Below are positions 1-15,244 of a stretch of DNA of 20,896 nt, one piece after another; the stretch's first letter is position 1, and every line of letters begins with the position of its first letter. Below the pieces are notes generated by a model. The model worked only from the letters and a program-made list of their open reading frames with translations. It ran no database searches and was not told the DNA's origin. The translations under genes were made by a program, and so were the position numbers. The stretch spans positions 1-20,896 of the IMG/VR virus record IMGVR_UViG_3300010354_003426. The stretch is one strand, 5' to 3'. The DNA is from a virus.

Positions 1-308
1 CATGGCTCGAAAAGGTCAAAGAACTAGAAGCAAAGGTTGCAGAGTCTGAAGCAAAGGCTGCAAAAGCCAATGTTGATATCCAAGAGAAAATAGTGTACAA
101 GGATAAGGTTGTTGTACAAAAGGGTGATGAAATAATAAAATATGTTGACAAATTTGTAACCAAGGAAGTTCTCAAAGAAGTGCAAGGTCCGGAGCGTGTT
201 AAGATAGAAGAAGTTATTAAGTATGTTGAGAACTGCCCTGTACCGCAAGAAGTAATCGACATCCACAACCAGGCTGCGAGAATCAACAAATCGCAGAATT
301 CAAAATGA
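1..308 (+). CDS. Inner-membrane spanin-like (Rz-like) protein, C-terminal part
   Basis: The reading frame is open from the first complete codon (position 3) to TGA at 306-308, so the gene begins upstream of the window. The visible 101 residues start with a charged Ala/Glu/Lys heptad-like stretch (LEKVKELEAKVAESEAKAAKAN) typical of a coiled coil, followed by mixed charged sequence and the ending ENCPVPQEVIDIHNQAA. A periplasmic coiled coil ending in a CPVP-type tail is what I recall of phage i-spanins. The stop overlaps the start of a small lipoprotein (ATGA, 305-308), the usual arrangement of an i-spanin/o-spanin pair, and an endolysin follows. In the family, the inner-membrane spanin binds the outer-membrane lipoprotein and fuses the two membranes in the last step of lysis. 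The N-terminal membrane anchor lies outside the window, so this is a contextual call; a tail-associated coiled-coil protein is the alternative. Confidence 0.55.
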   Translation, partial: WLEKVKELEAKVAESEAKAAKANVDIQEKIVYKDKVVVQKGDEIIKYVDKFVTKEVLKEVQGPERVKIEEVIKYVENCPVPQEVIDIHNQAARINKSQNSK

Positions 309-571
309 AAAAGTTAGTTGTGATATTTGCCATTGCTGCTGCTGGTTGTTCGACTGTTGTTCCAGTTAAGCGTACATTCCCTGACGCACCCGCTGAACTA
401 CAAAAACAGTGTCAGGACCTTAAAACCCTCGAAGGAAACAAAGTTTCTATCATGGATTTAATGAAGACAGTTGTTGAGAATTATAAATTATACTATGAGT
501 GCTCAAACAAAGTTGAAGGCTGGCAAGACTGGTATAAGACACAAAAAGATATCTTTGATAGTGTAAAGTAA
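305..571 (+). CDS. Small lipoprotein, probable outer-membrane spanin (Rz1-like)
   Basis: An 88-residue protein. The N-terminus is a lipoprotein signal: MKK, a hydrophobic stretch and a lipobox ending AAAGC with the lipidated Cys at residue 15. The mature part is short and soluble, with a Pro-containing segment right after the Cys (VVPVKRTFPDAPAEL), one internal Cys pair (QCQDL, YECSN) and a Trp-rich C-terminal helix (KVEGWQDWYKTQ). The start is fixed by the ATGA overlap with the preceding coiled-coil gene, implying coupled translation. Paired with that gene, the natural role is the o-spanin that reaches across the periplasm during lysis. The call rests on lipobox plus position; the protein is somewhat longer than classical Rz1. 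A superinfection-exclusion lipoprotein cannot be excluded. Confidence 0.6.
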   Translation: MKKLVVIFAIAAAGCSTVVPVKRTFPDAPAELQKQCQDLKTLEGNKVSIMDLMKTVVENYKLYYECSNKVEGWQDWYKTQKDIFDSVK

Positions 572-849: not shown

Positions 850-1473
850 ATGGAACTAACACTACAACAACTTAAACAACTTCTACCCAAAAACCCATAC
901 GTTGAGCACTGGCATAGAGCTCTTGCTCAGCTGTTTCCTGATTACGAGATCAACACTCCTCAGCGCATTGCAGCGTTTGTTGCCCAGTGCGCGCATGAGT
1001 CTGGTGGGTTCATGGTGTTGAAGGAAAATCTTAATTACAGGCCAGCAACGTTGCGCAAGCTGTTCCCGAAATACTTTCCTGACGATGCTATTGCTAATGA
1101 CTATTGCTCGCGTCCTAATAAGCAAGAAGCAATAGCAAATCGCATCTATGCAAACAGAATGGGTAACGGACCAGAAGAGTCTGGTGATGGTTATCGATAC
1201 TGTGGTCGCGGTCTGATTCAGTTGACAGGACGCGATAACTATGCGTGGTTTGCTGCTTCTCTCAGCATCACGCCAGAGGAAGCAACGGAGTATTTGGCGA
1301 CGTTCGAAGGTGCTGCACAATCCGCATGCTGGTTCTGGGAAACAAACAAACTTAATCAATGGGCAGATAAAGGTGACATCGTTACACTAACGAAGCGAAT
1401 CAATGGTGGGACGATTGGTCTAGATGACCGAATTAAACATTATGAACATGCTCTCCATGTACTTGGTCACTAG
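850..1473 (+). CDS. GH19 chitinase-like endolysin
   Basis: A 207-residue single-domain protein of the glycoside hydrolase 19 / lysozyme-like fold that cuts the glycan strands of peptidoglycan at lysis. Supporting motifs: the early helix with the catalytic acid, CAHESGGF (Glu50); the block YRYCGRGLIQLTGRDNY (near residues 115-131), diagnostic of phage GH19 endolysins; and the C-terminal KRINGGTIGLDDRI, which is the family's 'NGG..G...R' segment. No signal peptide is seen, so periplasmic access would need a holin, and holin-like candidates follow downstream. The length matches stand-alone phage GH19 lysins, with no separate cell-wall-binding domain. The ATG at 850 follows the previous stop by one base and has AGGA about 7 bases upstream. 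Confidence 0.92.
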   Translation: MELTLQQLKQLLPKNPYVEHWHRALAQLFPDYEINTPQRIAAFVAQCAHESGGFMVLKENLNYRPATLRKLFPKYFPDDAIANDYCSRPNKQEAIANRIYANRMGNGPEESGDGYRYCGRGLIQLTGRDNYAWFAASLSITPEEATEYLATFEGAAQSACWFWETNKLNQWADKGDIVTLTKRINGGTIGLDDRIKHYEHALHVLGH

Positions 1474-2257: not shown

Positions 2258-2505
2258 TAGGATTCCTGCACAGCTTGCTTAGCGATAGTCACAACAACTC
2301 GTGGAGTTCGAAGCGAGTTGTTACGTTCCTTGCATTCCTGCTGTGCGGTACTGCTTTTCTTGCTGATGTGTTTTTGGGTAAGAAGATCACACAAGGATTA
2401 TACGATGGTATGATGTACATCGTGATTGCTGGTCTTGGCCTTACGGCATCGGAAAAATTTACACCTGATAAATATAACAATCGTCCAACGGAGTCACCCA
2501 AATGA
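2254..2505 (+). CDS. Putative holin-like two-helix membrane protein
   Basis: An 83-residue protein with two hydrophobic stretches (VVTFLAFLLCGTAFLADVFLG and MMYIVIAGLGLTASEKF) flanked by a polar N-terminus (SDSHNNSWSSKR) and a charged C-terminus. Size, topology and position in a lysis block fit a class II-type holin that would permeabilise the inner membrane and release the endolysin. I recall similar 'SSKR..TFLAFLLC' phage proteins annotated as holins or unknowns, but have no search to confirm it. Both ends are coupled by ATGA overlaps (2254-2257 and 2502-2505). Confidence 0.55.
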   Translation: MIGFLHSLLSDSHNNSWSSKRVVTFLAFLLCGTAFLADVFLGKKITQGLYDGMMYIVIAGLGLTASEKFTPDKYNNRPTESPK

Positions 2506-2711
2506 AATACGTACTCTCTCTCATCGCCGCTTCTGCGCTCACTTTTGGTGCTGCTGATGCGTTTGCTGCTGAAACAAAGAAGGTTTGCATCGACAAGGTT
2601 ACCAAGGATGGTAAGCCTGTGATGGACAAAGCTGGTAAGCAAGTCCAGGATTGCAAAGAAATGAAGGTTCACAAGAAGCTTGAAGGTACGAAAGTACCTG
2701 AGAAGAAGTGA
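2502..2711 (+). CDS. Small exported Lys-rich protein
   Basis: A 69-residue protein with a textbook Sec signal peptide (MKYVLSLIAASALTFGAADAFA, likely cut after AFA at about residue 22). The mature peptide of about 47 residues is highly basic, has two cysteines (KVCIDKV, QDCKEM) and contains a repeated KDGKPVMDKAGK-like pattern. A disulfide between the two Cys in the periplasm is likely. Function is unknown. It is coupled by ATGA to the holin-like gene and by GTGA to the next gene, so it is part of the same transcription unit. Confidence 0.65.
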   Translation: MKYVLSLIAASALTFGAADAFAAETKKVCIDKVTKDGKPVMDKAGKQVQDCKEMKVHKKLEGTKVPEKK

Positions 2712-2956
2712 GCCCGGCTGGCAACAGCATGGAAATGTTTGATACAGGCGCACGGATTGCGGTTTTGGAAAATCAACTCGAAAATCTTGGTAGCGAGTTA
2801 AAAAACTTCAGACAAGATTCAAAAGATCAACACCGTCAAATGATGGAGAAGATCGACGATATTGACAAACGCCTTGTCGTAATTGAGAGATGGCGTTGGA
2901 TGATCGTCGGGGGTGCGTGCGCTCTTGGATACTTGGTATCTCATTTTGTAAAATAA
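2708..2956 (+). CDS. XhlA-like coiled-coil protein with C-terminal membrane anchor
   Basis: The product has an amphipathic coiled coil (ARIAVLENQLENLGSELKNF ... MMEKIDDIDKRLVVIE) followed by a single C-terminal hydrophobic helix (WRWMIVGGACALGYLVSHF). This order matches the haemolysin XhlA / phage membrane-protein family that works with holins and endolysins. GTG 2708 overlaps the previous stop (GTGA); in-frame ATGs at 2729 and 2735 are alternatives and would still keep the whole coiled coil. It is the last gene before the strong hairpin at 2976-3011. Confidence is high that the gene is real and moderate for the family. Confidence 0.6.
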   Translation: MSPAGNSMEMFDTGARIAVLENQLENLGSELKNFRQDSKDQHRQMMEKIDDIDKRLVVIERWRWMIVGGACALGYLVSHFVK

Positions 2957-2959
2957 CAG

Positions 2960-2988
2960 TTGACTTCTGTACATCAACCCTCTAGAGT
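2960..2988 (+). promoter_or_regulatory. Sigma-70-like promoter overlapping a terminator, upstream of primase
   Basis: TTGACT (2960-2965), 17-base spacer, TAGAGT (2983-2988). The -35 matches 5 of 6 consensus bases and the -10 matches 4 of 6. It shares the GTTGACTT core with promoters at 12624 and 15241. The -10 element lies inside the left arm of the terminator hairpin, so a start point about 7 bases downstream would fall at the beginning of the right arm (near 2995). Promoter activity is inferred. Confidence 0.5.
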
Positions 2989-3011
2989 TGATTGCTCTAG
3001 AGGGTTTTTTT
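2976..3011 (+). terminator. Strong intrinsic terminator / SD-sequestering hairpin
   Basis: A perfect 12-bp inverted repeat (AACCCTCTAGAG at 2976-2987, CTCTAGAGGGTT at 2995-3006) with a 7-base loop and a run of seven T (3005-3011). It ends the lysis block. The right arm also holds GAGGG (3000-3004), placed 7 bases before the primase ATG at 3012, so the same hairpin hides the primase ribosome-binding site in any read-through transcript. Confidence 0.9.
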
Positions 3012-4040
3012 ATGAATTGGATCGATCAAAAATACATTAACAGTCTTGCACCTCGTCTTTCTATGTTCTCGCGGAAGGATGATGGTGTATGGAACATGCG
3101 CTGTCCGATTTGTGGTGACTCTCGAAAGAGTAAGACAAAGGCACGAGGGTACATTCTTGGTCGGAATGGTTCATATGTGTATACATGTCACAACTGTAAC
3201 GTATCGATGCCTTTTGGTAAGTTTCTCGAGACAATTGATCCAGCAGCTTATAAGGACTACCTTCGCGAACGGTTTGTCGAGCGCAGCAGCAATACGAGTA
3301 ACATCGTCGAGCCGGCTGCGGACATATCAAAGTTCCATGTTCCGAAGTTTATCAAGTATACAGCACTAAACACACTCAAAAAGATCTCTCAGCTCGAGGT
3401 AGATCATCCTGCTCGTAAGTACATTGTTAGGAGACAGATTCCTAACCCTTATCATGCGAAGCTGTTCTATGCACCGAAGTTTAAGACATTCGTCAATACA
3501 TTGATTCCGGATAAGTTTGATCTGTCGAAGAAAGATGAACCACGACTGATTATTCCATTCGTTGACAAAGAAAAGAATCTGTTTGGCTTTCAGGGTCGTG
3601 CGTTTGGCCCTGTAGAACCGCGCTACATCACGATCATACTTGACCATGATAAGCCAAAGGTATACAATCTAGAGTCAATCGATGTCAAACAACGAGTATA
3701 TGTTGTTGAAGGACCGATCGATGCAATGTTCCTTCATAACTGTGTTGCAATGTGTGGTGCACATCTAGATGAGACGATTAACACAGTAGGTGTCAAACCA
3801 CATAATGTAACCGTTGTGTATGACAATGAGCCAAGGAACAAAGAGATTGTCAAGGCAATTGAGAAGGCAATAGACAAGGGATATAGCGTTTGTATATGGC
3901 CGCAGCATGTACAACAGAAAGACATTAACGACATGGTGATTAGTGGTTTGTCTCCAAATAAGATACAACAGATCATAGATCAGCATACATACAGTGACCT
4001 GGTTGCTAAGATGCAACTAATACAGTGGAAGAGGATATAA
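3012..4040 (+). CDS. DnaG-type DNA primase (T4 gp61-like)
   Basis: 342 residues from ATG 3012, which is the size I recall for T4 gp61; a longer reading from TTG 2988 would run through the hairpin and is rejected. It makes RNA primers for lagging-strand synthesis together with the replicative helicase (not in this window). The N-terminal zinc ribbon is CPIC (Cys31, Cys34) plus CHNC (Cys59, Cys62). The catalytic Toprim domain follows: VEGPIDAM (Glu233, Asp237) and YDNEPRN (Asp271 and Glu273, a DxE in place of DxD, as I recall for T4-type primases). The Shine-Dalgarno GAGGG lies inside the upstream hairpin. It opens a unit continuing to thyX and nrdA, linking priming and dNTP supply. Confidence 0.93.
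   Translation: MNWIDQKYINSLAPRLSMFSRKDDGVWNMRCPICGDSRKSKTKARGYILGRNGSYVYTCHNCNVSMPFGKFLETIDPAAYKDYLRERFVERSSNTSNIVEPAADISKFHVPKFIKYTALNTLKKISQLEVDHPARKYIVRRQIPNPYHAKLFYAPKFKTFVNTLIPDKFDLSKKDEPRLIIPFVDKEKNLFGFQGRAFGPVEPRYITIILDHDKPKVYNLESIDVKQRVYVVEGPIDAMFLHNCVAMCGAHLDETINTVGVKPHNVTVVYDNEPRNKEIVKAIEKAIDKGYSVCIWPQHVQQKDINDMVISGLSPNKIQQIIDQHTYSDLVAKMQLIQWKRI
3640..3668 (+). promoter_or_regulatory. Possible internal promoter inside primase
   Basis: TTGACC (3640-3645), 17-base spacer, TACAAT (3663-3668): 5 of 6 matches in both boxes with optimal spacing. It lies within the primase coding sequence about 370 bases before thyX, so it could boost thyX/nrdA. A chance match in coding sequence is quite possible. 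Confidence 0.3.
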
Positions 4041-8010: not shown

Positions 8011-8976
8011 ATGAAAAAGTTTGCGATCCTGTTGTCTGCGTTTGTTGCGCTCTCAGCATCCTCACAAACAGTAAAGATTGACGGCTCTTCTACAGTGTTT
8101 CCAATCACTGAAGGAATTGCTGAAGACTTTCAAAAGAAAACCAAAGTTAAAGTTACAGTCGGTATTTCCGGTACTGGCGGTGGATTCAAAAAGTTTTGCA
8201 GAGGTGAGATAGATGTGCAGAATGCGTCACGTCCAATCCTCCAAAAAGAAATCGATGATTGCAAGGCAGCTGGCGTACAATACTATGAGCTGCCCGTTGC
8301 GTTTGATGCGCTGACTGTTGTGGTCAATCCTAAGAACGATTTTATCAAGCAGCTGACGATTGATGAGCTGAAGAAAATGTGGGAGCCAGCAGCGCAGGGT
8401 AAGATCACAATGTGGAATCAGATTAACCCTCAGTGGCCTGCTCGTCCTCTGAAGTTGTTTGGTGCTGGGTCTGACTCAGGCACGTTTGACTACTTTACCG
8501 AAGCAATTGTTGGTAAGTCTAAATCAAGCCGTGGTGACTTCACAGCTTCAGAAGACGACAACGTTCTTGTGCAGGGTGTGTCGTCGGATGTAGGATCTTT
8601 AGGATATTTTGGATATGCCTACTACGCAGAAAACACAAATAAGCTCAAGGCGGTGCTGATTGTTAACAAGGAAGGTAAGGCTGCCCCTCCTAGCGAACTG
8701 ACTGTAATGAACGGATCGTATAATCCCCTCAGCCGCCCAATTTTCATCTATGTTAACGCTAAGAGCTTAGACAAGGCGGAGGTTAAGGCGTTTGTGGAAT
8801 TCTACATGGCTCACGCTGCCAAAATTAGCAAAGAGGTTAAATACGTTCCCCTGCCTGATAAAGTGTACAAGGCAAACCTCGATCACATTAACAAGAAGAG
8901 GTTAGGAACAATTTTTGGTGGTAAGAACGAAGTGGGTCTTACCGTGGAAGAACTAACAAGGAGAGAAGCTAAATGA
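8011..8976 (+). CDS. pstS: PstS-like periplasmic phosphate-binding protein
   Basis: A 321-residue protein with a Sec signal peptide (MKKFAILLSAFVALSASS). The mature part starts with KIDGSSTVFPITEGIAEDF, the phosphate-binding GSSTVFP loop of PstS, followed by ISGTGGGFKKFCRGEID, NASRP and GAGSDSGTFDYFTEAI, all phosphate-site segments of the family. In cells PstS hands phosphate to the PstABC transporter; no pstABC gene is present, so the product would have to work with the host transporter. pstS is a known auxiliary metabolic gene of marine phages (e.g. cyanophages). AAGGAG (about 8000-8005) gives a good ribosome-binding site. Its stop overlaps the exported nuclease gene (ATGA 8973-8976), tying the two functions together. 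Confidence 0.94.
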   Translation: MKKFAILLSAFVALSASSQTVKIDGSSTVFPITEGIAEDFQKKTKVKVTVGISGTGGGFKKFCRGEIDVQNASRPILQKEIDDCKAAGVQYYELPVAFDALTVVVNPKNDFIKQLTIDELKKMWEPAAQGKITMWNQINPQWPARPLKLFGAGSDSGTFDYFTEAIVGKSKSSRGDFTASEDDNVLVQGVSSDVGSLGYFGYAYYAENTNKLKAVLIVNKEGKAAPPSELTVMNGSYNPLSRPIFIYVNAKSLDKAEVKAFVEFYMAHAAKISKEVKYVPLPDKVYKANLDHINKKRLGTIFGGKNEVGLTVEELTRREAK

Positions 8977-9427: not shown

Positions 9428-10051
9428 ATGATTAGTAAACTTCTTGCTGGTGTGGATAAGGGCTTAGCATACAAGCTCGTAGCATTCCACACATTCATTA
9501 TCGCTCTTAGCAACTGGCTCGTTACGTTCAAGTTCGAGTTGTTTGGTCACGTTCTAGCAGCAGCGGCATTTACATTCCCGCTCGTTGTTGTGGCAACCGA
9601 CCTTACTGTTCGAATGATTGGTAAAGAACTCGGACGCGCTGTTGTTGGTCTGAGTTTTATTCCAGCAATCATTGCTAGTATCCTAGTGATCTTGTGGTCT
9701 GGTGCACCTCAGCACGTTGCTCTGCGTATCGGCTTTGCTAGCGGGCTAGCATACCTGGTTAGCACGTTGCTTGATGTCTATGTGTTCCAATACTTCCGTG
9801 AGAAGTTCAATCAGTGGTGGATTGCTCCTACGCTGAGTAGTGTTGCAGCTACCGTGATTGACACATATACATTCTTTGGTGCAGCTTTCTGGAAGAACGT
9901 TGGAAGCAAGTTTGAGCACAACTGGACAGAAGTGGCAACAAACCACATTGTCGTTAAGATGGTTGTGAGCCTGCTGGTGATCCTCCCAGCGTATGGCGTG
10001 TTGTTGAACTTCCTGCAGAAGAAGATTGCTTTTGCTAATCCTACGAAATAG
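9428..10051 (+). CDS. yhhQ: YhhQ-type queuosine precursor (preQ0/preQ1) transporter
   Basis: A 207-residue polytopic membrane protein (about six hydrophobic segments) that I recognise as the YhhQ / COG1738 (VUT, DUF165) family, inner-membrane importers of 7-deazaguanine precursors. Similar blocks to E. coli YhhQ: FHTFIIALSNWLV, FTFPLVVVATDLTVRMIGKELGR, LDVYVFQYFREKFNQWWIAPT and YGVLLNFLQKK, at comparable positions and length (E. coli about 221). AAAGG at 9415-9419 lies upstream. Only 17 bases separate it from the nuclease gene, so no preQ1 riboswitch fits there. With the QueC-like gene at 11102-11869 it suggests phage interest in 7-deazaguanine nucleobases, for tRNA queuosine or for DNA modification. 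A terminator follows. Confidence 0.93.
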   Translation: MISKLLAGVDKGLAYKLVAFHTFIIALSNWLVTFKFELFGHVLAAAAFTFPLVVVATDLTVRMIGKELGRAVVGLSFIPAIIASILVILWSGAPQHVALRIGFASGLAYLVSTLLDVYVFQYFREKFNQWWIAPTLSSVAATVIDTYTFFGAAFWKNVGSKFEHNWTEVATNHIVVKMVVSLLVILPAYGVLLNFLQKKIAFANPTK

Positions 10052-10070: not shown

Positions 10071-10097
10071 AAGGGGCAGCACTGCTGCCCCTTTCTT
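10071..10097 (+). terminator. Intrinsic terminator after yhhQ
   Basis: A GC-rich hairpin with stem AAGGGGCAG (10071-10079) and CTGCCCCTT (10085-10093), loop CACTG, followed by TCTT. It separates the pstS/nuclease/yhhQ block from nrdB. No clear promoter is visible in the 30 bases before nrdB, so nrdB may depend on read-through or on an unrecognised phage promoter. Confidence 0.85.
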
Positions 10098-10127: not shown

Positions 10128-11120
10128 ATGAACGCGAAAAGAAAATTAAAACTATCTGACGAGAGAACATTTTTTAAGCCATTTACATATCCTTGGGCTT
10201 ATGATGCATGGCTGAAGCATGAGCAAAGCCATTGGCTTCATACAGAAGTGCCAATGCTTGAGGATGTTAAGGATTGGAAGAAGAGGCTGACAAAAGAAGA
10301 AAAGCAGTTTCTTACACACATCTTCCGTTTCTTTACACAAGGAGACATTGACGTTGCTGGTGGGTATGTTCGTAACTACTTACCGTACTTTCCTCAACCA
10401 GAGGTACGGATGATGTTGTGTGGATTTGCTGCGAGAGAGGCGCTGCACATTGCTGCCTACTCGCATTTGATCGAAACGCTTGGCCTGCCTGAGACAACAT
10501 ACAACGAGTTCTTAGAGTATGCAGAGATGCGAGAGAAGCACGATTATGTGCTCGATATCGCAACACAGAACTCATCACGTGAAAACACTGCTAAACATAT
10601 TGCTGTCTTCTCCGCGTTCACAGAAGGAATGCAACTGTTTAGTTCGTTTATCATGCTGCTGAACTTCCCACGTCAAGGTAAGATGAAGGGAATGGGTCAG
10701 ATTGTTACGTGGTCTGTTGTTGATGAGACAATGCATGCCGAATCAATGATCAAGCTGTTCCGTACATACGTACAGGAAAATCCGGAGATATGGACTGATG
10801 AGCTCAAGTCACAAATTTACACGATTGCTGAACGAATGGTTGTACTCGAAGACAGGTTTATTGACCTGGCATTTGGGATGGGCGCTATGGACGGTCTGGA
10901 CAGTAATGATGTTAAACAGTACATCCGCTATATTACAGATCGTCGCCTTATCTCTCTTGGTCTCAAGGGTATCATGAAGGTAAAGAAGAATCCGCTGCCG
11001 TGGGTCGAAGAGATGATCAACGCACCGATTCATACTAACTTCTTTGAGAATCGTGCCACAGACTATGCTCGTGGTGCAACGACTGGAACATGGGATGAGG
11101 TGTGGGGCAAGGCTGCATAA
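10128..11120 (+). CDS. nrdB: Class I ribonucleotide reductase, small subunit
   Basis: A 330-residue R2 protein, partner of NrdA. It holds the di-metal site and tyrosyl radical that start catalysis. Ligands visible in order: TQGDID (Asp73), REALHIAAY (Glu104, His107), EGMQLF (Glu166) and DETMHAES (Glu200, His203). The radical Tyr is kept: Tyr111 lies seven residues after Glu104, the same spacing as Tyr122 after Glu115 in E. coli NrdB. So this is a normal tyrosyl-radical R2 and not a tyrosine-less variant. Length is close to typical phage NrdB. AAGGA about 8 bases before the ATG serves as ribosome-binding site. The QueC-like frame starts within its last codons. Confidence 0.96.
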   Translation: MNAKRKLKLSDERTFFKPFTYPWAYDAWLKHEQSHWLHTEVPMLEDVKDWKKRLTKEEKQFLTHIFRFFTQGDIDVAGGYVRNYLPYFPQPEVRMMLCGFAAREALHIAAYSHLIETLGLPETTYNEFLEYAEMREKHDYVLDIATQNSSRENTAKHIAVFSAFTEGMQLFSSFIMLLNFPRQGKMKGMGQIVTWSVVDETMHAESMIKLFRTYVQENPEIWTDELKSQIYTIAERMVVLEDRFIDLAFGMGAMDGLDSNDVKQYIRYITDRRLISLGLKGIMKVKKNPLPWVEEMINAPIHTNFFENRATDYARGATTGTWDEVWGKAA

Positions 11121-11869
11121 GGATAGGAGCCGATAGTCGGGAGTTCGATCTAGACAAATCGTTTCCCGACTTCCCACCTGGCAACTTGTACATTGGGTTC
11201 ACAGGAGGAGTGGAGTCAACTATCCTGCTCCATATCCTCCTGGAGCGATATCCAAACCATAATATTATACCATGCACGTGGCGATTTGGCGACAGGCGCC
11301 TTCATGAGTGGGATCATGCTCGATCGATGTGTGAGCACTTGGGCATTGTTCATAACCACATAGAAGCTGGCTACCTTGAGAACAGTGCTGTTATTGCCAC
11401 CAAGCCACAGGAACCAGACAAATACTTTAACAAAGAAAACAAACTGTTTGTCAACTTTGTTGATAGTGATCCTACCTTTGTTGCTGGATTCTCTGGAAAG
11501 AACACAACACTGCTAGACCCAGAGAAAATTACACCAGAGGAGCAGCGTAAGTATGTCGTATGGTTCAAGGTGCATAGACCGTTTCTAACGTATGATAAGC
11601 ATCACATTGTAGATCTATACTACAAGATGGGTGTAGAGGATCTTCTTCCTTTTACACACACGTGTATACGTGCAATAGAGAAGCAAGAGATGTATGTAAG
11701 AGGTGTATCAACAAAGCATACACACTGTGGTAAGTGCTATGCGTGTATAGAACGACTAGAGGCGTTTGATCGCCTTGGAATCAATGATCCTGCTATATAC
11801 GATGGAGACTACGAAAGTCTCGTCCATAATGCAAGGAGGTATTATTATGGTCGATCTGTTGGAAGATGA
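11102..11869 (+). CDS. QueC-like PP-loop enzyme (7-cyano-7-deazaguanine synthase type)
   Basis: Up to 255 residues. The N-terminal PP-loop is FTGGVEST (residues 33-40), a variant of SGGxDS that binds ATP. The C-terminal part has Cys188 and a cluster HCGKCYACIERLEAF (Cys209, Cys212, Cys215), matching the zinc site and following 'C..R..GF' segment of QueC, with a longer gap after the first Cys (20 residues against 8 in E. coli). QueC turns 7-carboxy-7-deazaguanine into preQ0. The start is uncertain: GTG 11102 overlaps nrdB by 19 bases, while a strong Shine-Dalgarno-like AGGATAGGAG (11120-11129) has no in-frame start after it. The altered PP-loop and spacing leave room for a related amidating or thiolating PP-loop enzyme. 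Confidence 0.75.
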   Translation: MGQGCIRIGADSREFDLDKSFPDFPPGNLYIGFTGGVESTILLHILLERYPNHNIIPCTWRFGDRRLHEWDHARSMCEHLGIVHNHIEAGYLENSAVIATKPQEPDKYFNKENKLFVNFVDSDPTFVAGFSGKNTTLLDPEKITPEEQRKYVVWFKVHRPFLTYDKHHIVDLYYKMGVEDLLPFTHTCIRAIEKQEMYVRGVSTKHTHCGKCYACIERLEAFDRLGINDPAIYDGDYESLVHNARRYYYGRSVGR

Positions 11870-13271: not shown

Positions 13272-13287
13272 ACATAATGGGGTGGTT

Positions 13288-14259
13288 ATGGGTGGTGAAA
13301 CGGTTATTGTAACTGGTTGTAGTGGATATATCGGAACTGTTCTGTGTAACTTTCTGAAAGCACAGGGACATAAAGTAATTGGCTTTGATCTCGAAGAGAA
13401 TCCACTACTGGACATTGATCAGCTTCACCTGACCTGTATATCATCACGTACATTAGCTGAAACGGCTATTGACAATAATGTTACAAAGATCTTTCATCTA
13501 GCTGCATTTGTTGATGTTCGTGAGAGCGTTGAGCAGCCGTGGTTGTACTACTCAAACAATACCGGCAACACAGCTAAGATGATTGGTAACCTAGCAGACG
13601 TTGATTGGAAGGGACATTTGATCTTTTCGTCGACTGCTGGTGTATATGGCGACCCGGTTAGTGAGGGTGTACATGAATACAGTCCCGTTGTTCCAACAAA
13701 CCCATATGGTCATTCAAAGTTAATATGTGAACAGCTTTTGAAAGACATGTCAGAGCTTCGTGATATAAAGGTCACGGTGTTTAGATACTTTAATGTTGCT
13801 GGTGCTGATGATTTGTATGGTGACCATCTAACATCTAATCACATTATTCAAAAACTATGCAAGGCAGCATATGCAAGAAGTGTGTTCTATATAAATGGAG
13901 ACCAATATCCAACAAAGGATGGCACATGCGTTAGAGATTATGTTCATGTGAATGACATCTGCCGCGCCCATATGTTCGCTGCTTTTGTACGACCGCACAC
14001 AACGAAGTTTGAGGTATACAACCTCGGGACTGGTGTAGGATTTACAAACAAAGAAGTCGCAGCGGCATTCAGTGTGTTTACTGGTGTTGAAATCGCAGTG
14101 AAGATTAAGGATGCTAGGCCAGGTGATTCTGCTGTGCTGATAGCACGTCCTACAAAGTTCACATTTACAACTGGCTTTCGCTATCTTCACAGCAGCCTCG
14201 AGTCGATAATTACAAGTTCATGGAATAGCTACACAATGAGGATTCAAAATGGCATTTGA
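13288..14259 (+). CDS. NAD-dependent sugar epimerase/dehydratase (GalE-like)
   Basis: 323 residues from ATG 13288 (GGGGTGG just upstream; GTG 13282 is an alternative). An extended short-chain dehydrogenase: the NAD-binding loop is TGCSGYIG (residues 9-16), the catalytic set is SSTAGVYGDP (Ser/Thr) plus NPYGHSK (Tyr140, Lys144), and later blocks FRYFNVAGAD, DGTCVRDYVHVNDICRAH and YNLGTGVGFTNKEV are typical of UDP-glucose 4-epimerases (the DGT..RDY.HV.D signature). It likely makes UDP-galactose or a related nucleotide sugar. It overlaps the glycosyltransferase gene by 11 bases, so the pair probably supplies and transfers a sugar to phage or host surface, or to phage DNA. Confidence 0.93.
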   Translation: MGGETVIVTGCSGYIGTVLCNFLKAQGHKVIGFDLEENPLLDIDQLHLTCISSRTLAETAIDNNVTKIFHLAAFVDVRESVEQPWLYYSNNTGNTAKMIGNLADVDWKGHLIFSSTAGVYGDPVSEGVHEYSPVVPTNPYGHSKLICEQLLKDMSELRDIKVTVFRYFNVAGADDLYGDHLTSNHIIQKLCKAAYARSVFYINGDQYPTKDGTCVRDYVHVNDICRAHMFAAFVRPHTTKFEVYNLGTGVGFTNKEVAAAFSVFTGVEIAVKIKDARPGDSAVLIARPTKFTFTTGFRYLHSSLESIITSSWNSYTMRIQNGI

Positions 14260-15244
14260 TGAGAATGAGATTTCACTAAAGTCCAATGGTGGAACTGAAT
14301 TAGTTAAGAGAGCTCTGGCGAGCAGACTACCTACAGAGCTCGTAGATAACTTTCAGATTATTCCGTCTCGTGTTCGCGAGTTGGAAGAAGATAAAATCCG
14401 GGTACTGTGGTTGCATGATCTGCCTGGTGATCCAGAGTCGGAACATTTGAAGAACGGTGGACATGAGAAGTTTCATGCGATTGTTGGTGTTAGTAACTGG
14501 CAAATTCATCAGTACATCAGTTATTACAAACTGCCATGGAGTAAGTGTGTTGTAATTGAAAACGGTATTGAGCCGATCCAACAAGAGTTAATCAACAAGC
14601 CGACCGATAAGATCAAGCTGATATATCATACAACCCCTCATCGTGGTCTGGAAATCCTTGTTCCTGTATTTGAGGAGTTGTGTAAGACACACGATAACAT
14701 TGAGCTTGATGTGTACTCGAGTTTCAAGATCTATGGTTGGGATCAGCGTGATCAGCAGTATGAAGCCCTATTCGAGAGATGCAGAAACCATCCGAAGATC
14801 AACTATCACGGTACCGTGTCTAATGACGAAGTTCGTAAGGCTGTTGCAGAAGCACACATATTTGCATATCCCTCGATATGGACAGAGACGTCGTGTTTGA
14901 GCTTGATGGAAGCGATGAGTGCTAGGTGTGTATGTGTACATCCAAATCTTGGAGCGTTGTACGAGACGGCTAGCGGTGCTACGTTGATGTATCAGTGGAG
15001 TCCTGTAGGACATGAACACGCTCTAGGATTTCATAATGCTCTCGAGATGGCGATTAAGTCAATTGACAATCCAGGAACACATTACATGACAACGTTTGGG
15101 CGGTTGTGTGTAGATGTTCGGTTTAGTTGGGATGCTATTGTACCTGAGTGGGAGGGACTATTGAACAGTCTATTAGAGATGCATCCTACACCAGAATCAC
15201 GGAAACTTCCATCAGGACCCATGTTTCAGTATTCCGTCCGTTGA
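14249..15244 (+). CDS. Group 1 (GT4-like) glycosyltransferase
   Basis: A 331-residue GT-B type enzyme. The N-terminal domain has the acceptor-side glycine motif SNGGTELVKRAL; the linker contains VVIENGIEPI; the C-terminal donor domain has HTTPHRGLEILVPVFEEL, then FAYPSIWTETSCLSLMEAMSARC with the E-x7-E signature (Glu213, Glu221) of family GT4 and the donor-sugar loop. It transfers a sugar from a nucleotide donor; the acceptor is unknown. It overlaps the epimerase gene by 11 bases. Its stop codon (15242-15244) lies within the -35 box of the next promoter. It is a little shorter than cellular GT4 enzymes. DNA-base glycosylation, as in T-even phages, or surface glycan change are both possible. 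Confidence 0.9.
   Translation: MAFDENEISLKSNGGTELVKRALASRLPTELVDNFQIIPSRVRELEEDKIRVLWLHDLPGDPESEHLKNGGHEKFHAIVGVSNWQIHQYISYYKLPWSKCVVIENGIEPIQQELINKPTDKIKLIYHTTPHRGLEILVPVFEELCKTHDNIELDVYSSFKIYGWDQRDQQYEALFERCRNHPKINYHGTVSNDEVRKAVAEAHIFAYPSIWTETSCLSLMEAMSARCVCVHPNLGALYETASGATLMYQWSPVGHEHALGFHNALEMAIKSIDNPGTHYMTTFGRLCVDVRFSWDAIVPEWEGLLNSLLEMHPTPESRKLPSGPMFQYSVR

Follow-up and report, generated by a model that had tools for sequence, protein, structure and literature searches.

A promoter-nested hairpin before the primase gene of a T4-like phage and its distant relatives: a probable insulator of primase from read-through transcription

Genes and signals at the primase locus

The window analyzed here is the whole stretch of 20,896 nt from the IMG/VR virus record IMGVR_UViG_3300010354_003426. 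It encodes a DNA primase of the T4 gp61 type that shares 42-74% identity with its relatives in IMG/VR, and the features of the locus are collected in Table 1. Among the upstream ORFs are an endolysin of GH19-like type and a weak candidate for an Rz-like spanin, so the original prediction, which placed lysis genes upstream of the primase, had chosen a fair label. In annotated isolates, the primase is preceded by structural, tail, head, or holin-like genes and followed by a ribonucleotide reductase gene. PHROG 451 matched both the ORF at 2708-2956 (profile positions 49-107) and the primase (profile positions 130-461), suggesting that the two genes are fused or jointly annotated in some phages. 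Elsewhere in the window, auxiliary-type genes encode a PstS-like phosphate-binding protein (8011-8976), a QueC-like protein (11102-11869), a nucleotide-sugar epimerase (13282-14259), and a glycosyltransferase (14249-15244), and a second strong terminator-like hairpin, AAGGGGCAGCACTGCTGCCCCTT (10071-10093), lies between the ORFs at 9428-10051 and 10128-11120.

Table 1. Features at the primase locus, in window coordinates
Feature	Position	Strand	Evidence or remark
Rz-like spanin candidate, weak	305-571	+	phrog_456/16495, E about 1e-3; best match phrog_2425, function unknown
Endolysin, GH19-like (lysis gene)	850-1473	+	phrog_181 endolysin, E 3.2e-74
Candidate T4-type late promoter GATAAATA	2467-2474	+	Motif match, 35 nt before ORF 2502; weak evidence
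Small ORF upstream of primase	2502-2711	+	No assigned function
Small ORF adjoining primase leader	2708-2956	+	DUF7201 coiled-coil, weak match; stops 55 nt short of primase ATG
-35 box TTGACT	2960-2965	+	Aligns with TTGACT/TTGACA of relatives
Hairpin left arm	2976-2988	+	12 Watson-Crick pairs and 1 G-U
-10 box TAGAGT	2983-2988	+	Within hairpin left arm; TATAAT at corresponding site in L082-L085
Hairpin loop	2989-2993	+	Leader folding
Predicted transcription start	2994-2995	+	6-7 nt past -10, first right-arm bases; from promoter geometry and phasing in relatives
Hairpin right arm	2994-3006	+	Sequence match and folding
Shine-Dalgarno (SD) GAGGG	3000-3004	+	Wholly within right arm, 7 nt 5' of primase ATG
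T7 run	3005-3011	+	Proposed terminator tail (read-through RNA) and SD-to-ATG spacer (local RNA)
DNA primase, T4 gp61 type, 342 aa	3012-4040	+	phrog_47 DNA primase, E 2.6e-83

The original prediction had described a promoter-like TTGACT-17-TAGAGT (2960-2988) that overlaps the left arm of a perfect 12-bp hairpin with a T7 tail (2976-3011), with the primase SD in the right arm, 7 bases before the ATG at 3012. Checked against the window sequence, all of these coordinates were exact to the base. The two boxes are separated by 17 nt, and AACCCTCTAGAG (2976-2987) is perfectly complementary to CTCTAGAGGGTT (2995-3006); an additional G-U pair between T2988 and G2994 extends the hairpin to 13 pairs. The GC-containing stem is immediately followed by the U-run, as in an intrinsic terminator.

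Taken alone, the promoter match in the window is unremarkable: 45 matches of such quality were found in the window versus 36.7 ± 7.3 expected from shuffles, and the -10 box TAGAGT is a weak match. Unlike the promoter match, the hairpin is far beyond chance. Random sequence of 20.9 kb should contain about 0.008 perfect 12-bp inverted repeats with loops of 3-8 nt. For the 80-nt leader, the computed folding energy is -25.2 kcal/mol (z = -4.1), a stability that none of 200 shuffles equaled. No second copy of the palindrome was found in the window, even when 3 mismatches were allowed, nor did any Rfam RNA family match the window.

A candidate source of read-through RNA is GATAAATA, which contains the only ATAAATA in the window. 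ATAAATA was the top or near-top enriched strand-specific 7-mer upstream of ORFs in contigs G001 and G011-G014, which suggests that T4-type late promoters are present in these phages, and it is plausible that late RNA from such a site runs into the primase. The search for T4-type late promoters found no TATAAATA in the window. In a few clusters of relatives, ATAAATA recurs about 0.5 kb upstream of the primase; a tie between the hairpin and this late box was considered and rejected, as the presence of the motif does not track the hairpin.

Promoter and hairpin in related phages

Primase loci were gathered by four IMG/VR scans, giving 149 distinct leaders after de-duplication, of which 146 had sufficient upstream sequence and formed 97 clusters. 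A strong sigma70-type promoter (score at least 10.5 within 75 nt before the start codon) was found in 68 of the 97 clusters, versus 0.8 expected from dinucleotide shuffles. L082-L084 carry TTGACT-17-TATAAT at the position of the window promoter, and other relatives have TTGACA-17-TATAAT-like boxes at the same place. Since relatives have strong boxes at the matching place, the window promoter becomes credible, and as a conserved feature of these sequences the primase promoter is real. The promoter occurs without a significant hairpin in many relatives, including most cyanophage-like leaders.

For each leader, the best hairpin was sought with the promoter ignored, under the condition that its right arm end no more than 20 nt from the start codon. 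It was significant in 31 of the 97 primase leader clusters, compared with 14 of 209 other genes from the same genomes, and in 17 of the 34 clusters of the closer clades. The co-occurrence of promoter and hairpin that the switch model predicts was seen in nearly all close relatives. When the start was placed at the -10 end + 7, it fell within 4 nt of the first right-arm base in 16 of the 17 closest significant clusters (differences of 1, -4, -1, -2, -1, 0, 0, 2, 0, -1, -1, -2, 1, 1, -7, -1, and 3). The mean distance was 1.65 nt, with a permutation p of 0.0003; for non-significant hairpins there was no such phasing (p = 0.31), and these p-values are optimistic because the clusters share some ancestry and are not fully independent. 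The proposed local start at about 2995, at the edge of the right arm, thus has its counterpart across differing hairpins. Tight phasing is demanded by a promoter nested in the hairpin, and an unrelated terminator would not predict such tightness.

The arms themselves are wholly different in sequence and spacing between lineages. MAFFT alignments (A1/A2) put them out of register, and the pairs were therefore compared in stem register. The window and L083 have hairpins of equal size (31 nt) in which 6 of 13 pairs are changed on both sides, the kind of arm covariation by which the original prediction had proposed to be judged. Between cyanophages S-H34 and S-N03, three pairs differ and all remain paired, two of them via G-U. 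When the stems of the 17 clusters were called by Watson-Crick pairing only, G-U occupied 7 of 15 non-Watson-Crick positions versus 2.5 expected. The compensatory changes, the G-U excess, and the single-copy palindrome speak for an RNA stem rather than a protein operator, with arms that appear to have been renewed.

Folding predictions agreed with exposure of the SD on the local RNA. Across the 17 clusters, the mean predicted unpaired probability of the SD was 0.14 on the read-through RNA and 0.55 on the local RNA (0.00 and 0.68, respectively, in the window), a rise to be read with the caveat that any 5' truncation is expected to increase accessibility somewhat. The U-run is not generally kept with the hairpin: among the 17 closest clusters with a significant hairpin, about 5 show 6 or more T within 7 nt. 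T-runs 3' of the stem are present in L083, L086, and L159 and in cyanophages S-H34, S-N03, and S-B68, and are missing, for example, in L087, L089, L017, L168, L193, and L211.

Homologous phages having the hairpin and not the promoter had been named as evidence against the original prediction. Such cases exist and are rare, 4 of the 31 significant clusters having promoter scores below 9.5. In the Sinorhizobium phages phiM12, phiM19, and phiN3 (L242, L294, and L290), a GATGTCCT/AGGGCATC hairpin with an SD-like AGGG in its right arm abuts the primase ATG, and no recognizable sigma70-like promoter was found at this hairpin. DLP6 has a weak hairpin (p = 0.11) ending 22 nt before the primase ATG.

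The layout is nearly specific to one gene. In 16 contigs (about 0.83 Mb), almost all strong hairpins that straddle a predicted start before a gene belonged to the primase, with a single 138-aa gene of G013 and weak cases as exceptions; a genome-wide rule by which all internal promoters are nested in hairpins was therefore rejected. The G013 gene (contig of L193, minus strand near 46271) has no PHROG match, and its TTGACA-16-TATAAT is nested in ATCTATAGATAT/ATATCTATAGAT just 5' of the SD, making it a possible second user. Isolated cyanophages S-H34, S-N03, MA01, S-CREM2, and S-B68 also have the layout at the primase. In S-CREM2 the hairpin is present but the promoter match is poor (6.5), and in both S-B68 and S-CREM2 the stem lies immediately before the ATG with no clear SD in the arm. 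T4 gene 61 has no such leader; it belongs to an operon in which 61.1 ends 2 nt before it. The compact form postulated for the window, which would join promoter, terminator, and ribosome-binding site (RBS), is not confined to this phage. We found no description of a promoter-nested hairpin at primase in the literature searched, which lay largely outside subscription papers.

Interpretation of the primase leader

We consider it likely that a hairpin with the promoter nested in it insulates the primase gene and blocks primase synthesis from read-through RNA by occlusion, termination, or both. The early-type (sigma70-like) primase promoter has its -10 box inside the left arm, or in the loop in some relatives, and the primase leader would open with the right arm. 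Read-through RNA from the lysis or structural genes would contain both arms and fold, hiding the primase RBS, and where a U-run lies 3' of the stem, as in the window, it would also terminate. RNA started locally would begin at the right arm, could not form the fold, and would be translated. Primase output would then be limited to its own promoter, probably early, with none from late read-through RNA. Sequence and comparison together establish the promoter, the hairpin, their phasing, the compensatory change, the near specificity for primase, and the types of upstream genes; we infer where transcription actually starts, that occlusion or termination takes place in vivo, and when in infection this happens. 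Given that T-runs occur in a minority and that some stems lack an SD, the shared outcome would be that read-through RNA yields no primase. The silencing route may be occlusion, termination, or both, and the window has features of both. The transcript-selective switch of the original prediction is supported in this form, most of its comparative predictions having turned out positive, and primase synthesis in this T4-like phage, as in many distant relatives, probably depends solely on the gene's own early-type promoter.

A conventional intrinsic terminator that closes the late/lysis operon and overlaps the leader through genome compaction, with no selection on translation, would account for the window hairpin and its T7 run, which are a textbook example, as well as for the T-runs of the relatives named above and for the arms of S-B68 and S-CREM2. 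We nevertheless regard it as unlikely, because most significant hairpins have no T-run and yet retain the ATG-proximal right arm and the phasing of the start. Moreover, such a terminator would still need a start downstream of the left arm, which gives equal insulation. Dyads centered between -10 and +1 are typical repressor sites, and the phasing of the predicted start fits this geometry, so that the inverted repeat could be read as a DNA operator for a phage or host repressor. This is very improbable: the arms vary between lineages, the palindrome is single-copy in the window, and G-U positions are over-represented, on which grounds the operator was ruled out. The SD in the right arm of many relatives and the T-run in some also speak against it, and no conserved or repeated recognition sequence was found.

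The shuffle-level score of the window promoter would suit a terminator or hairpin lying by chance near a weak promoter-like string without functional linkage. Recurrence in many leaders, phasing between start and arm, promoter conservation, and near one-gene specificity largely refute pure chance, and we give it very little credence. Promoters serve at T4 origins, and the locus is that of primase, so the hairpin might be a replication or priming element (a cruciform or R-loop origin) at the primase promoter. None of the results supports such an element, and the sequence turnover and the RBS and T-run features are better explained by RNA control; its probability is close to negligible.

A broader reading is based on leaders without an SD. 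In 11 clusters (L034, L039, L100, L111, L112, L114, L139, L140, L141, L160, and L205), the promoter lies almost at the primase ATG, as for a leaderless-type start, and an SD-like motif is missing from all of them. Speculatively, a leaderless primase mRNA would be a different way of confining primase synthesis to the gene's own promoter. It is possible, and we offer it only tentatively, that T4-like phages of aquatic bacteria use interchangeable devices (an RBS-occluding hairpin, a nested terminator, or a leaderless mRNA that lacks an SD on read-through RNA) to tie primase to its own early-type promoter because primase from late read-through would be harmful, with hairpin arms repeatedly renewed around a fixed promoter.

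The promoter-nested insulating hairpin, if it acts as proposed, points to selection against making primase late. It makes the late-to-early operon boundary of T4-like phages testable and would be a compact natural part in which promoter, terminator, and RBS lock are combined.

Relation to known systems

IS10/Tn10 and IS50/Tn5 protect their transposase from outside transcription: read-through RNA folds so as to sequester the transposase start, and translation is left to the transcript of the element itself. Unlike the primase leader, these are mobile-element ends, with the inverted repeat at the transposon end and no phage operon boundary.

The T4 precedent cited in the original prediction, hairpins that block the translation of long transcripts, is well founded. 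T4 e, soc, 49, I-TevI/II/III, and segB and Aeh1 mobE use a hairpin that sequesters the RBS and whose 5' half contains a late promoter (PMC3014915, PMC2988022), and according to a review, the genes regulated in this way are all late genes carried on early or middle RNAs (PMC2988022). Like these leaders, the primase leader is predicted to hide its RBS on a long read-through RNA, with pairing of the SD and start region, and to have a local promoter encoded by the 5' half of this structure, here with the -10 box in the left arm and a conserved promoter motif, whose transcript would lack the 5' arm and be translated. However, the promoter is sigma70-like rather than T4-late, the gene is a replication gene behind lysis or structural genes rather than a late gene, the timing would be opposite, and a T-run can add termination. 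Having neither a late promoter nor a late gene, the window leader is not a member of the T4 set, though it would work alike.

In Bacillus subtilis, earlier work cited in PMC5942855 proposed that a large hairpin blocks translation of sigG on read-through RNA from the upstream spoIIG operon; RNA initiated at the sigG promoter is unable to fold it. The likeness lies in a hairpin that blocks read-through RNA and is absent from own-promoter RNA; the differences are that sigG is a cellular sporulation gene, that its hairpin has 20 or more pairs, and that no terminator is described. Each step of the scheme proposed for primase has a direct precedent in T4 e and I-TevI and in sigG. The principle is thus already known from T4 and B. 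subtilis, and what is new is the early-type promoter and the replication gene behind lysis or structural genes. The T4 device silences late genes on early RNA; at the primase the logic would be reversed, on a core replication enzyme and across many phages, culturable cyanophages included.
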